Positions 20,647-64,000 of a DNA stretch of 64,000 nt are shown here, piece by piece. The notes under the pieces were generated by a model. The model was not told where the DNA came from. It was given only the letters and a program-made list of their open reading frames with translations, and did not search any database. Within the stretch, counting starts at the first letter, position 1, and each line of letters opens with the position of its first letter. Position numbers and translations under genes: made by a program. Source of the stretch: a candidate division WOR-1 bacterium RIFOXYB2_FULL_46_45 (GTDB lineage Bacteria > Margulisbacteria > WOR-1 > XYC2-FULL-46-14); the NCBI GenBank assembly GCA_001771585.1, contig MEUE01000001.1, positions 62,001-126,000 of the forward strand, in the 5' to 3' direction.

Positions 20647-22196
20647 ATCTGCTCCGGTGCTTCTATTTTTAATAATTTTAGCACGTTTTCAATTACAATT
20701 CGAGTCGCTTCAACCAGAACCAGCCGCGCCGGATTATCAAGCACCCGGCACTGGTGGTAGAAATTGTGGAAGATTGCCGCGACATCTTTAACATAATTTA
20801 TCAGCTGATGCGGCTCGCGCTTACGGCAGGCGGCCAGGATTTCGTCCTCAAAGTCCAGCAGTTTTCTCATCAATGCCCGCTCCGCTTCGTGAGTTAAGGT
20901 GTCTAGCTTTGCACTTTGCACTTTGCACTTTGACTTTCTTAAGATGCTGCAAATTCTGGCATGAGCATACTGTACGTAATAAACAGGATTTTCCTGTTTT
21001 TTCTCTTTGGCCAGCTCCAGGTCAAAATCCAAATGGTTGTTGACCGAAGTTGAGGTCATAAAAAACCGGACCGCGTCGGATCCGATTTCGGAAATTATCT
21101 CGTCCAAGGTCACCATCTCTCCGGTCCGCTTGCTCATCTTAACCTGCTCTTTTCCGCGGTAAAGAGTAACCAGTTGCCCGATGATCACCTCAAACCGGTC
21201 AATCGGCAAACCAACTGCCGCAAGGGCCGCTTTGACGCGCGGGACATAGCCGTGATGATCGGCCCCCCAAATATCGATTATAATATCGTAGCCGCGTTTA
21301 AACTTGTTGATATGATATGCGATATCGGCGGCAAAATAGGTCAGCTCCCCGTTTTCTTTTACCAGGACCCGGTTCTTGTCGTCCCCAAAGGCCTCGGATT
21401 TAAACCAAAGCGCCCCACCCTCCCTGATCGTGTGCCCCTCCGAACTTAAACGGGAGATGGCGTCTTCAACCAGTCCCTCATCATGCAAGGTCTTTTCACT
21501 AAAATAGGAATCAAAAATAACTTTTAATTTCGCAAGGGTCTCTTTTTGTTTGGAAAGAATATAAGGCAAAAGCTGTTTGTGATCCTTCAAATCATCGGCA
21601 ATCTCTTTTATATAAGAACCCCCGTATCCGCCCTCCGGAACAGGAGAACCGTTTGCGGCCGCCTTGACCGATTTTTCGAGCAGTTTAATCTGGTTTCCCC
21701 GGTCGTTTACGTAATATTCGCGGTCAACTTTATAACCGCAGGCCTCAAATAAACTGGCAATATCGTCCCCGATCACCGCCCAGCGGCCGTGGCCGACATG
21801 CAAAGGCCCGGTCGGATTGGCGGAGACAAATTCGATCAAGACCTTTTTGCCTTTACCGGTTTTATTCCTGCCGTATTTTTGTTTCTCTTTAAGGATCGTC
21901 TTAAGATTGTTTTGAAGAAATTCAAAGCTGATCTTAAAATTAATAAACCCGTTTTTGAAGGCGGAAATTTCCGAAAAGATTTTTTGCGGCTTCTTTTTTA
22001 TTTCCGCGACGATCTTTTCGGCAATTTCAAAGGGGGGCTGCCTTAACGATTTCGCCAAAAGCAGAGCGGCATTGGTCGAAAAATCGCCGTATTCGGCGTT
22101 TTTGGGGACCTCAACCGTCACTTCGGGAAGATTCACTCCCTGCGGCAGGAAACCCGCGAGAGTTGAAGTTATGATATCAGATATTTGCCGCTTCAG
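20643..22196 (-). CDS. argS: Arginyl-tRNA synthetase, probably using a CTG start
   Basis: Class I synthetase. The Rossmann signature PTGPLHVGHG (HVGH near 133-136) and the KMSKR-type loop QVKMSKRTGEM are present, with the C-terminal DALR anticodon-binding domain (VQYAHARICSILRK). A GTG at 22136 would give 497 aa, but the frame stays open upstream and encodes family-like sequence (LKRQISDIITSTLAGFLPQG). The best upstream start is CTG at 22194-22196, 5 bases after AAGGAG, giving 517 aa. No ATG, GTG or TTG is available there. Three copies of a heptamer lie in the linker at 20907-20932. Confidence 0.93.
   Translation of the reverse strand: MKRQISDIITSTLAGFLPQGVNLPEVTVEVPKNAEYGDFSTNAALLLAKSLRQPPFEIAEKIVAEIKKKPQKIFSEISAFKNGFINFKISFEFLQNNLKTILKEKQKYGRNKTGKGKKVLIEFVSANPTGPLHVGHGRWAVIGDDIASLFEACGYKVDREYYVNDRGNQIKLLEKSVKAAANGSPVPEGGYGGSYIKEIADDLKDHKQLLPYILSKQKETLAKLKVIFDSYFSEKTLHDEGLVEDAISRLSSEGHTIREGGALWFKSEAFGDDKNRVLVKENGELTYFAADIAYHINKFKRGYDIIIDIWGADHHGYVPRVKAALAAVGLPIDRFEVIIGQLVTLYRGKEQVKMSKRTGEMVTLDEIISEIGSDAVRFFMTSTSVNNHLDFDLELAKEKKQENPVYYVQYAHARICSILRKSKCKVQSAKLDTLTHEAERALMRKLLDFEDEILAACRKREPHQLINYVKDVAAIFHNFYHQCRVLDNPARLVLVEATRIVIENVLKLLKIEAPEQM
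20907..20932. repeat. Heptamer tandem repeat inside argS
   Basis: CTTTGCA is repeated three times with a partial fourth copy. Three 7-base units equal seven codons, so the frame is kept. The coded residues (SKCKVQSAK) lie in a linker of the anticodon-binding domain that is variable in length in the family. Confidence 0.8.
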
Positions 22197-54484: not shown

Positions 54485-55531
54485 ATGGCACCACCTATTG
54501 TTTTGGGGACTAAAAACACAACTTATCCTGTATCTACCCATAAGAATAAGAAAAAGGGGAAACCGATCAATTGCGTTTTTCGCAAGCCAGATAATGTGAA
54601 TAAAATGCTAGGGACTTACCCTGAATTTGCCAGCAATCCGCTCCCCGCTGAAATCCAAAAAAGTCCTTTTTATAAACACTTGCTTTGCCCTTCTTCAACC
54701 CGTCATTTTAGAGGTTTCCCTGTTTTTAGGGATACCCGGTTATACGAAACGGTTAAAAATCTTCCCCGCGTGTTAAGGGATCAAAGGGTTTGTATCCTCT
54801 ATCCCGCCTCCGGCAGCCACCTTGCCCCCCTGGACTTGATTAATCATATTTTTGAACAAGAAGACAATAAAATCAATTCGGCTAAAATAATTCTTACAGA
54901 AATAAAAGAAGCAGCTTTGAAAGAATTAAGAAATCTTCTCAATAAATTAGCAAAAGAAGGCGTTTACGCCGGATTAAAAGAGACTCAAGCAAACTACCCT
55001 AACGGAGGATCTGAAACGACTTTTGCTTTTAGCTATAACGGAAAAGAAATAACACTGGTATTTGCGCTAAATATGAGCGGAGATGATTATTATAAGGAAG
55101 AATATTTATCTGAATCGGATGTTTGGGTTATCCATGATCCCGGCGTAGGGGATTCCAAAAGCTCGTTTAAGCTCCTTAAATCCTTTCTAGTATCAGCCGG
55201 AAACAATAAGATTGTTAATCCCCCCGTCATTGTAATGGAAAACATTAATGATTATTCTGCACCATCCATTATGCTTTCTCTTATTTTTAATCCCCCAAGC
55301 AAAAAAGAGGATGAAACAATGTATTACAACGAGGACTTATTGCCCGGCCAAAAAATTAAAATTCCTTTTCCCTATGGACATCGCGTTAATTATGGGGAAT
55401 TGCCTGAAACAGGAGCCGCTTTCTACCAATCAGCAATCGTCTATACGCCAGATATTAATTTATTTAAACAATCTCCATCGGATATAAAAGCATTGCTTGA
55501 TAAAGCCCATTCCTCGATTAGTGAGCCCTAA
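54485..55531 (+). CDS. Hypothetical protein with a Rossmann/methyltransferase-like core
   Basis: 348 aa with AAGGAG before the ATG. I do not recognise the family. Residues ~90-180 look like a class I SAM-methyltransferase fold: RVCILYPASGSHLAPLDLI (a Gly/Ser loop after a strand), then KIILTEIKEAALKEL (strand, acidic residue, helix), and later DVWVIHDPGVGDSKSSFKLL. The usual GxGxG is not present. The N-terminus is basic (THKNKKKGKPINCVFRKPD). It lies just beyond the guaA repeat and overlaps the convergent mltG end by 14 bases. It may belong to the same accessory region as the operon at 46-51 kb. Confidence 0.7.
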   Translation: MAPPIVLGTKNTTYPVSTHKNKKKGKPINCVFRKPDNVNKMLGTYPEFASNPLPAEIQKSPFYKHLLCPSSTRHFRGFPVFRDTRLYETVKNLPRVLRDQRVCILYPASGSHLAPLDLINHIFEQEDNKINSAKIILTEIKEAALKELRNLLNKLAKEGVYAGLKETQANYPNGGSETTFAFSYNGKEITLVFALNMSGDDYYKEEYLSESDVWVIHDPGVGDSKSSFKLLKSFLVSAGNNKIVNPPVIVMENINDYSAPSIMLSLIFNPPSKKEDETMYYNEDLLPGQKIKIPFPYGHRVNYGELPETGAAFYQSAIVYTPDINLFKQSPSDIKALLDKAHSSISEP

Positions 55532-56501
55532 CCCTTGCCCTCTGATGCTCCTCCCATGTCCTTGAAAAAATATGGCTTCCGTCTTTTTTGGCAACAAAAA
55601 AGAAATAATCGGTTTTAGCCGGATAAATGGCCGCTTTGATTGAATCGAGACCAGGATTGCAGATCGGTCCCGGAGGAAGTCCGCGCCGCTTATAGGTATT
55701 GTAAGGCGAATCGACTTCGAGCTGTTTGTATAATACCCGCTTGGTCGGGTTCTCCAGCGCGTACTTGACCGTCGGATCGGCGGCAAGGGGCATTTTGGCG
55801 TCAAGCCGGTTGTAAAAGACCGAAGCGATCACCGGACGCTCTTCCGGCTTCTGCGCCTCTTTTTCGACAATCGAAGCCATTGTCAAAACCTCATGCAAAC
55901 CAAACCGGGCTAAGCGGTAATTCTCATTCCAGTACGGAAGAACCTTCTCCTTGAAGCGGTTAAACATCATGTTTATCAAAATCGACGGAGAACTCCCCTT
56001 TTCAAGAATATAGGTATCAGGAAATAAATACCCTTCAAGCGTTGCGGCAGAGTTTAAGAAATCCTCCACATGCAGATAGCCCTCTTTTTCAAGAATCTTC
56101 CCGATCTTGTAAACCGAAGTCCCTTCCGGAATAACCGCACGGATTTGAGATCCTTCAACCGTTTCTCCCTTTCTTATTTTTTTTATGACTTCCAGGTTCC
56201 CCATCCCGGGAGTCAGAGAATAAGTCCCCGCCTTGAGTTTGTCCTCCTCCCCTAAAACTTTCAGGGTAAAAAGAAAAAAGGTCCTGTTGGAAATGATTTT
56301 TTCGGAGACCAAAATGTCGGCAATTTGGCCGGGGGTGGAACCCATGGGGATGACAATGTCGGCAGCATAAGCACAGTTAATAACCAAGAACCAAGATACA
56401 AACATCAAACAAACACCAATAAACAATTTCCAATAATCAAACGGAAAAACTAGAAATTTGAAATTGTTTCGGATTTCGGATTTCGGATTTCGGATTTTCA
56501 T
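55518..56501 (-). CDS. mltG: Endolytic murein transglycosylase MltG
   Basis: 327 aa inner-membrane enzyme that cuts new glycan strands. The LysM-like part ADIVIPMGSTPGQIADILVSEKIIS and the catalytic YceG domain are clear: LEGYLFPDTYILEKGSSPSILINMMFNRF holds the catalytic Glu region and LTMASIVEKEAQKPEERPVIASVFYNRL is the second core block, followed by YNTYKRRGLPPGPICNPGLDSIKAAIYP. The first ~40 residues, including the membrane anchor, are encoded by a simple-sequence repeat (56380-56497). Its ATG overlaps the ruvX stop. Confidence 0.93.
   Translation of the reverse strand: MKIRNPKSEIRNNFKFLVFPFDYWKLFIGVCLMFVSWFLVINCAYAADIVIPMGSTPGQIADILVSEKIISNRTFFLFTLKVLGEEDKLKAGTYSLTPGMGNLEVIKKIRKGETVEGSQIRAVIPEGTSVYKIGKILEKEGYLHVEDFLNSAATLEGYLFPDTYILEKGSSPSILINMMFNRFKEKVLPYWNENYRLARFGLHEVLTMASIVEKEAQKPEERPVIASVFYNRLDAKMPLAADPTVKYALENPTKRVLYKQLEVDSPYNTYKRRGLPPGPICNPGLDSIKAAIYPAKTDYFFFVAKKDGSHIFSRTWEEHQRARVRAH
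56380..56497. repeat. Degenerate repeat with four CGGATTT units, encoding the MltG N-terminus
   Basis: 56470-56497 is four perfect copies of CGGATTT. Toward lower coordinates it passes into AT-rich approximate repeats (CAATTTCCAATAATCAAAC, ACCAAGAACCAAGATAC). Translated on the minus strand it gives KIRNPKSEIRNNFKF and a hydrophobic stretch. I recall similar SEIRNP-coding repeats in genomes of other uncultured bacteria, but cannot check this here. Confidence 0.8.
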
Positions 56502-56899
56502 TTGTTCTTTCTTTGAAGATATCCCTCAAGGATTAAAACGGCGGCGAGCTGGTCGATCACTTTGCGCTGTTTCTTTTCGTTTAACCCGGCTTCGTGCAGG
56601 GTCCGCCTGGCATCGGAGGTCGTCAAGCGCTCATCCCAGGTAACGATTGGGATATTAATTTCCTTTTTCAATAAATCGACAAACTCAAGGGTCTTTTGCG
56701 CGCGGGGACCGATCTCTCCCCGCATCGTTTTGGGGAGACCGACCACAATTTCAGAAACTTCCTCATATCTTTCAATTATTTTTTTTATCTCTTCAATGTT
56801 GGGTCCGATTGTTCCAACCGGCTGCGCGGTAAATCCCAAAGGATCGGAAACAGCCACTCCCACCCGCTTTTCACCATAATCGATCGCCAAGATTCTCAT
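56498..56899 (-). CDS. ruvX: RuvX/YqgF RNase H-fold protein
   Basis: 133 aa. Opens with RILAIDYGEKRVGVAVSDPLGFTAQPVGTI (catalytic Asp). The second block is EIVVGLPKTMRGEIGPRAQKTLEFVD and the third is TWDERLTTSDARRTL. Members process 16S rRNA ends or resolve Holliday junctions. It overlaps alaS and mltG by 4 bases each. A gene next to alaS is common for this family. Confidence 0.94.
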   Translation of the reverse strand: MRILAIDYGEKRVGVAVSDPLGFTAQPVGTIGPNIEEIKKIIERYEEVSEIVVGLPKTMRGEIGPRAQKTLEFVDLLKKEINIPIVTWDERLTTSDARRTLHEAGLNEKKQRKVIDQLAAVLILEGYLQRKNK

Positions 56900-62577: not shown

Positions 62578-64000
62578 TGGACATATATTCTACCATAATT
62601 TCTTTGGCTCGGTCGATTACTTCGTGGGGCAGACCGGCCAGTTTTGCCACCTGTATCCCGTACGACTTATCGGCAGGCCCCTCCATTATTTTATGGAGAA
62701 AAGTGACGTGGTCTTTTTCGTCCAGCACCGCAACGTTTAAGTTTTTCATCCCCGGGTGTTTTTCGGCCATCGCGCAAATTTCGTGGTAGTGGGTCGCGAA
62801 CATCGTCTTCGCCTTTATTTTGGTATGGATATATTCGGCCACCGCCGCCGCGATCGACATCCCATCAAAGGTGGCGGTTCCCCGCCCGATCTCGTCCAAA
62901 ATTATCAAACTCTTTTCCGTGGCGTTATTTAAGATATTGGCGGTTTCGGTCATCTCAAGCATAAAGGTTGATTGTCCGGAAAAAATATCGTCCATCGCTC
63001 CAATGCGGGTAAAAACGCGGTCAACCAGGCCGACTTCCGCCTCTTTTGCGGGGACAAAGGATCCGATCTGCGCCATGAGACAAATCAAGGCAACCTGGCG
63101 CATATAAGTGCTTTTGCCCCCCATATTCGGACCGGTGATCAGAAGAAAACTTATTTCATCCGAAAGCTCAACATCATTTGGAACAAATCTGTGCTCACCA
63201 AGCATCTTTTCAACTACCGGGTGTCGACTCTCTGATAATCTGATGATCTGATGATCTGATGATCTGACCACCGGCTTGCAGTAGTTATTTGCAACCGCAA
63301 CCTCAGCAAGAGACAATAATACATCCAATTGTGCAAGAATATGGGCAGTTTGCTGTAAGCTCTTGGTATGTTTCGCCACCTCTTCACGAATTTGGCAAAA
63401 GATTTCATATTCCAGTTTCTTCATCCGATCGTCCGCATTTAAAATTAAAGCTTCCCGGTCTTTTAATTCCGGAGTGATATATCTTTCCGAATTGACCAGG
63501 GTCTGTTTGCGGATATAGTCGGACGGCACCTGGTCCAAATTGGATTTGGTGATATCGATATAATAACCGAAGACACGGTTGAAGCTGACCTTGAGCGATT
63601 TGATCCCGGTCCGCTGGCGTTCTTTTACTTCAAGTTCGGCAATCCACGCTTTCCCCTCTGTTGTCGCTTTTTTAATCTCATCAAGCTCCGCGTTATATCC
63701 CGACCTAATTATGCCCCCTTCGGTTATTTGGATGGGGGGATCGTCGATTAGTGATCCCTGGATAAAGGCAGAAAGATGTCTCACGGATTCGATATCAATA
63801 TCCATTTCTAATAATTCCGCCTTGCAATTTTTTAAAACCTCGACTATAGCAGGCAGTTTCCGCAGCGATTCTGAAAGCGCGATCAAATCCCGCGCGTTGC
63901 AGCTCTTCGCCGCCACTTTGGCTGTCAATCTCTCCACATCGGAGATCGCTTTCAATTGCTTCCCCAGCTCTTCGCGTAAAATAACCGAGTTAAAAAGTTC
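62567..64000 (-). CDS. mutS: DNA mismatch repair protein MutS, C-terminal part
   Basis: The frame is open to the right edge, so only the last ~477 residues are seen. They hold the end of the lever domain (NSVILREELGKQLKAISDVERL), the connector helices, and the ABC ATPase with Walker A LLITGPNMGGKSTYMRQVALI, signature QSTFMLEMTETANILNNAT, Walker B SLIILDEIGRGTATFDG, and the H-loop ATHYHE. It is MutS1-like by the RHPVVEKML block. An 8-base tandem repeat lies just before that block (63232-63267). Confidence 0.95.
   Translation of the reverse strand, partial: ELFNSVILREELGKQLKAISDVERLTAKVAAKSCNARDLIALSESLRKLPAIVEVLKNCKAELLEMDIDIESVRHLSAFIQGSLIDDPPIQITEGGIIRSGYNAELDEIKKATTEGKAWIAELEVKERQRTGIKSLKVSFNRVFGYYIDITKSNLDQVPSDYIRKQTLVNSERYITPELKDREALILNADDRMKKLEYEIFCQIREEVAKHTKSLQQTAHILAQLDVLLSLAEVAVANNYCKPVVRSSDHQIIRLSESRHPVVEKMLGEHRFVPNDVELSDEISFLLITGPNMGGKSTYMRQVALICLMAQIGSFVPAKEAEVGLVDRVFTRIGAMDDIFSGQSTFMLEMTETANILNNATEKSLIILDEIGRGTATFDGMSIAAAVAEYIHTKIKAKTMFATHYHEICAMAEKHPGMKNLNVAVLDEKDHVTFLHKIMEGPADKSYGIQVAKLAGLPHEVIDRAKEIMVEYMSNAR
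63232..63267. repeat. 8-base tandem repeat inside mutS
   Basis: CTGATGAT occurs about four and a half times (the first unit is CTGATAAT). On the minus strand it codes for SDHQIIRLSE, between the connector and the RHPVVE block of MutS. The distance between the flanking conserved motifs is close to that in E. coli MutS, so the repeat fills rather than lengthens the linker. Confidence 0.8.

Follow-up and report, generated by a model that had tools for sequence, protein, structure and literature searches.

Signal peptides evolve fast, and the source of new ones is mostly unknown. Among the short palindromes dispersed in bacterial genomes are the REP and BIME sequences with their RAYT transposases, of which the REPs are extragenic. 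Rickettsia palindromic elements (RPEs; Ogata 2000 and 2002) are in-frame insertions in metabolic genes, for which the accessible portions of the reports describe no role as signal-peptide donor (PMC10969869, PMC2229807). Among the enterobacterial RU-1/RU-2 repeats and their ERIC/YPAL-type fusions, RU-1 read in one of its frames yields transmembrane segments within small open reading frames (ORFs), and one Yersinia protein has a signal peptide made partly by a repeat, with unrelated signals in its homologues (Delihas 2007, PMC2759123). PARCELs are peptide-coding palindromic DNA that has passed from genome to genome and is associated with proteins targeted to the membrane (Roske 2010, PMC2996958). 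Here we analyzed a 64,000-nucleotide stretch of the candidate division WOR-1 bacterium RIFOXYB2_FULL_46_45 (hereafter the window), in which the start of mltG, the gene for an endolytic murein transglycosylase, coincides with a dispersed repeat. We consider it probable, at roughly 0.85, that mltG owes its first ~41 codons to a copy of an imperfectly palindromic repeat dispersed in this bacterial class, which was recruited as a predicted export signal or anchor.

The repeat resembles RPEs in behavior, in that both are short (~100-150 bp) dispersed palindromes found in frame within unrelated conserved genes and also between genes. The present repeat occurs in many such genes with the frame kept, but it belongs to a different phylum and has a second mode, in which one arm codes N-terminal signal peptides. 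RU-1/RU-2 provide a single clear case of a signal peptide, their other fusions being mostly small ORFs whose function is doubtful (PMC2759123), whereas the present repeat codes 28 N-termini in a dozen genomes, in many conserved families (FlgH, FlgA, OEP, solute-binding proteins, MltG) and in all three frames. PARCELs differ in that they belong to the protein body, where they form a tandem amphipathic domain of 25 residues and no signal peptide (PMC2996958). The nearest precedents are RPEs, the closest kind, together with the single Yersinia signal peptide. The literature searched, which included few subscription papers, held no report of recurrent signal-peptide recruitment or of this repeat family.

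The mltG gene lies on the minus strand at 55518..56501 and codes for 327 amino acids, with the conserved domain at residues 49-323 (55533-56357). That domain scores 301.9 bits against Pfam PF02618 (YceG; curated cut-off 32.4), the product scores 254 bits against NCBIfam TIGR00247 (MltG; cut-off 103), and structural relatives include 4iiw and 2r1f; by these matches the identification as MltG is unmistakable. Upstream, ruvX (56498..56899, minus strand) overlaps mltG by the four bases ATGA (56498-56501), an arrangement common to relatives. The protein begins with MKIRNPKSEIRNNFKF...LFIGVCLMFVSWFLVINCAYA followed by ADIVIPMGS and, as a preliminary description made from the window had proposed, it has a basic start and a single hydrophobic segment (residues 26-41), with no other ahead of the domain at residue 49. 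Translation probably starts at 56501, since the ruvX-mltG junction is conserved and the next in-frame ATG (residue 33) would interrupt the hydrophobic core. By simple rules only, the N-terminus fits the pattern of a Sec signal peptide of class I (charge +4, maximum 12-residue hydropathy 2.8, AYA), with the net charge of +4 reached before a 16-residue core that is followed by NCAYA|AD. The segment, which most likely serves as a working export signal and anchor as predicted, would target MltG to the membrane. The preliminary description had called it a membrane anchor, and a hydrophobic repeat-coded segment is indeed there; it may, however, be a signal peptide that is cleaved off (AYA|AD) instead of a lasting anchor, the predicted cleavage being based on the NCAYA|AD motif, which lies outside the repeat.

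Read from the start codon, the DNA is ATGA-(AAATCCG)x4-AAACAATTTC...GAAATTGTTT...GTATCTTGGTTCTTGGTTATT, and codons 2-41, which comprise both the basic start and the hydrophobic region, are repeat-derived. The left arm (56470..56497, minus strand) consists of four exact AAATCCG units and codes the basic n-region KIRNPKSEIRN, as judged from the sequence, Tandem Repeats Finder (TRF), the genome copies and the charge. TRF reports period 7, 4.4 copies and a 100% match over 31 bases (56467-56497), in agreement with the four CGGATTT units first described, and a 20-base piece of the array has 3 matches (2 exact) in the whole 64 kb against 0.08 expected from shuffles. The approximate repeats noted beside the array are also real (TRF, 56398-56442). 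In the element center (56421..56469, minus strand), sequence and folding reveal a residual perfect inverted repeat of AAACAATTTC (56460-56469) and GAAATTGTTT (56421-56430). The right, T-rich arm (56379..56442, minus strand) codes the hydrophobic region ..WKLFIGVCLMFVSWFLVI and has homologs among non-coding palindromes as well as among other signal peptides. The best repeat matches end at or near 56379, on which basis the codons for N-C-A-Y-A (56364..56378, minus strand), with a possible signal peptidase I site before A47-D48, are left outside the repeat. A simple-sequence repeat had been suggested as the origin of the whole segment; this holds for the heptamer array, but that array is a single arm in a family of imperfect palindromes, whose other, T-rich arm codes the anchor.

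The homology of the anchor DNA was assessed with a non-coding palindrome (L117, in G025) of a different family as the query, which avoids circularity. It matches the mltG anchor DNA at 80% over 64 bp (E 8e-10), scoring 58 bits against 29 bits for the best of 1000 dinucleotide shuffles. The non-coding copies are true palindromes, with fold z of -6.5 to -6.7 for three of them; the copy L004 has z -2.9. Among 75 genomes surveyed, the family is present in 24, nearly all of the same class, and the 43 genomes from the other classes of the phylum gave one weak match. Many matches in relatives are restricted to the anchor-coding half (query positions 62-136; up to 81% over 67 bp, E to 5e-12), while one relative has a full-length copy (query positions 2-136, 71% identity). 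Since a genome of another phylum (G074) has left-arm copies of the same family (L101, L161, L162, L233-L238), the repeat, or its heptamer core, appears to cross phyla. Phage and plasmid collections, searched with one query each, gave no match. RAYT as the mover of the repeat has no clear association with it: Y1_Tnp genes occur in 21 of 31 genomes, some of them incomplete assemblies, and do not appear to track repeat presence, with none in several copy-rich genomes (among them G007, G021, G026 and G029).

The preliminary guess of a dispersed repeat is borne out by a genome-wide count. A BLAST search of its own genome (1.70 Mb, 4 contigs, 99.5% complete) with 56358-56510 as the query, supplemented by a right-arm copy as the query for right-arm places, found eight further left-arm copies, seven of them in frame within genes, and two further right-arm copies. 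By NCBIfam, the in-frame hosts of the left arm are a HycI-type hydrogenase maturation protease, glutamate synthase GltA, ValRS, MetRS, RadA, ThiF and the type III pantothenate kinase CoaX; the repeat also occurs in an anti-sigma-like ORF without a family assignment, and one copy is intergenic. The insert sits just ahead of the FAD-binding motif in GltA and follows the zinc finger in RadA. Within these hosts the reading direction is invariably the hydrophilic one (KSEIRNPK..., ITNNQDT...). The genome also has a second predicted signal peptide made by the repeat, MIKMRIWLLVIGYWLLATGFSMA followed by ATT, on an SLH/porin-like protein.

Across the survey, 114 of the 134 distinct copies lie within ORFs that have at least 80 codons outside the repeat, with the frame kept. 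Copies read in the hydrophobic direction are N-terminal in 29 of 33 cases, compared with 23 of 81 near the N-terminus for those read in the hydrophilic direction (Fisher p 4.6e-9); one copy (L111), whose start codon adjoins the repeat, was moved by hand from internal to N-terminal. Most N-terminal hosts recognized by Pfam belong to families of exported proteins; those named comprise FlgA, FlgH (two genomes), SLH proteins, periplasmic and family-5 solute-binding proteins, LolA-like proteins, OEP/TolC (two), CusB/HlyD, a subtilase, a FadL-like protein, NHL and PD40 propellers and TPR proteins. Eight further N-terminal hosts have no Pfam match or only a weak one. A positive n-region is found in 24 of 28 repeat-coded N-termini and a simple signal peptidase or lipobox motif in 27 of 28, a generous count that includes VSC within the core (clear lipoboxes are those of L118, L129 and L130). 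Some two dozen other exported proteins appear to owe their signals to the same repeat, which therefore looks like a recurrent natural source of signal peptides. These hosts are mutually non-homologous. Alignment to the non-coding palindromes places their arms in three frames (12, 8 and 7 cases), with 82.8, 83.4 and 87.7% identity at codon positions 1, 2 and 3. Convergence at the protein level would be expected to settle on a single frame and to give its lowest identity at third positions; the use of three frames and the conservation of third positions instead show descent at the DNA level.

Comparison of mltG N-termini in relatives had been proposed as a test, and the same N-terminal protein encoded without repeats was not found. 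In the class, mltG stands behind ruvX, in several genomes with an ATGA-type overlap, and nearly all orthologs have an N-terminal hydrophobic anchor, two loci being truncated or misread by a simple ORF rule. The repeat arm was not found in these orthologous N-termini, which score at most 24.7 bits compared with 60.8 in the present genome; internal mltG stretches, as a negative control, score at most 20 bits. The highest values, from G026 (24.7 bits) and G023 (23.8 bits), belong to N-termini (L022, L036) that are suspected to be repeat-like, a suspicion not confirmed. Because relatives keep the junction and an anchor without the repeat, both are ancestral as features, with the anchor sequence replaced in this genome. 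The earlier proposal that a repeat landed at the junction and supplies the anchor is supported, with a refinement: the repeat codes the basic start and the hydrophobic region, but the junction and an anchor pre-exist in relatives, and the ATGA-type overlaps found there rule out a junction created by the repeat.

Similar replacements were found elsewhere. G015 belongs to another family of the class, and its MltG anchor copies a different repeat, one dispersed in that genome (84% over 67 bp, E 4e-14). Further copies of that repeat form another signal peptide, ending AYA|QS, and lie in a glutamate synthase linker. The signal peptide of FlgH is repeat-derived in G025 (63.5 bits), G004 (43.7) and G030 (41.0) and not in most others, and the mature start AD/NS[LIV]W is conserved despite the replacement. 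As a separate observation, the G023 mltG gene (L036) starts behind CCCTCACCCC...GCCTGCCGGACGGGCAGGCAGG, which looks like another repeat family at the ruvX-mltG junction.

Other ways of accounting for the mltG start have to be weighed against recruitment of a dispersed palindrome. One is that a repeat-bearing 5' end of another exported-protein gene was copied into mltG by gene conversion, with no free palindrome involved. Cores resembling VSWLLVI/VSCILVI are indeed common to several signal peptides, but three different frames are in use, many copies retain both palindrome arms, and the NCAYAAD tail of mltG is single-copy in the genome, so we regard such shuffling as doubtful. It is less likely still that the repeat is a neutral or mildly harmful tail, a selfish N-terminal addition comparable to the Rickettsia elements, beside which an adjacent ancestral anchor does the work. 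RPEs are usually interpreted in this way, and most intragenic copies of the present repeat are inside cytosolic enzymes and look merely tolerated; against this, the repeat match spans the whole hydrophobic segment to codon 41, leaving no other before residue 49, and hydrophobic copies are nearly confined to protein N-termini, for the most part those of exported proteins.

Convergence, under which the T-rich signal peptides of these genomes (TTG/GTT/ATT/TGG codons) resemble repeats by composition alone and mltG contains repeat DNA in its heptamer part only, draws on the fact that h-regions are necessarily T-rich at second positions and that short chance matches reach 25-30 bits. The matches to non-coding palindromes reach 58-79 bits, well clear of the shuffle maximum of 29, and the multiple frames, the conserved third positions, the near absence of matches in other classes and the low scores of ortholog anchors all point the same way; similarity by composition alone is ruled out on these grounds, and we judge convergence very improbable. 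A function of the element at the ruvX-mltG junction, as an RNA hairpin or a regulatory site, has in its favor the strong folding of the non-coding copies (z -6.5 to -6.7). The mltG copy, by contrast, shows no excess of folding over shuffles, whether as RNA (z +0.6) or as DNA (z +0.2), which leaves this explanation barely credible.

Several points nevertheless count against the proposed recruitment. The arms of the mltG element belong to two different subfamilies and no hairpin is left (fold z about +0.2), for which reasons this copy appears to be degenerate or hybrid. The copy survey grew out of what a few queries matched, a limited number of hits being scored per genome, and some copies, as at the IleRS and CysRS sites, were inherited together, so the counts are non-independent and the p-values indicative. 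The relatives compared all lie outside the genus. Finally, the signal peptides are predictions from hydropathy, charge and -3/-1 motifs.

Some further copies deserve mention in their own right. In seven genomes, IleRS-like genes (L087, L142, L152, L153, L154, L165, L220) carry the repeat at an identical site after SPSI[YF]V, and in four genomes CysRS-like genes (L084, L103, L106, L159) carry it at a common site near DDKII, the host names coming from motif reading; these sites are either old shared insertions or hot spots. In the inter-domain linker of glutamate synthase, G015 (L223) and the present genome (L003) carry different repeats, in two families of the class. The MetRS gene of the present genome (L007, C1:733342-733371) has a second palindromic stretch, GGGCAGGACATTGTCCTGCCC, in frame beside its AAATCCG-type insert, and this one enzyme perhaps carries a stack of two repeat families. 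The insert in the ThiF-like gene (L009, C3:453917) adjoins CCTGCCTGCCGGCAAGGCAGGG, which also looks like a repeat and translates in frame to CLAGRQ. A YfhO-like membrane protein (L182, G022 C21:155403) has the hydrophobic arm at its C-terminus, where it would span the membrane. Two more short near-perfect tandem arrays occur in the window, at 20907-20937 (CTTTGCA x4.6) and 63231-63267 (TCTGATGA x4.6).

Complementary codons have opposite hydropathy, the antisense of Lys/Asn/Gln codons being Phe/Val/Ile/Leu codons. The T-strand of the arm is hydrophobic in all three frames, with stops in one or two frames of some copies, and the A-strand is hydrophilic. Read first, the A-rich arm would give a hydrophilic, basic stretch, and the T-rich arm, its near reverse complement, would give a hydrophobic stretch in each frame. 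A palindrome read from A-arm to T-arm would then be a ready-made n-region and h-region with the layout of a signal peptide, a role that should suit it because its two arms must read hydrophilic and then hydrophobic. Copies landing in frame just past the start codon of an exported protein could replace its signal peptide, while those within cytosolic enzymes would survive in the hydrophilic orientation, in apparent loops and linkers. At mltG, the element would have moved in either by insertion followed by loss of the old anchor or by direct replacement.

We lean toward a class-wide supply of signal peptides, in which palindromic arms that code a basic n-region and a hydrophobic core in any frame have repeatedly replaced conserved envelope export signals (in two lineages, by different repeats, for MltG and in about three for FlgH), such that repeat insertion may be a standing mechanism of signal-peptide turnover. 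One family of DNA repeats would then have been caught many times in the act of giving signal peptides to genes that are otherwise conserved. Protein-coding repeats have so far been seen mainly as tolerated selfish DNA; here, if this is true, their use would be recurrent and position-specific.
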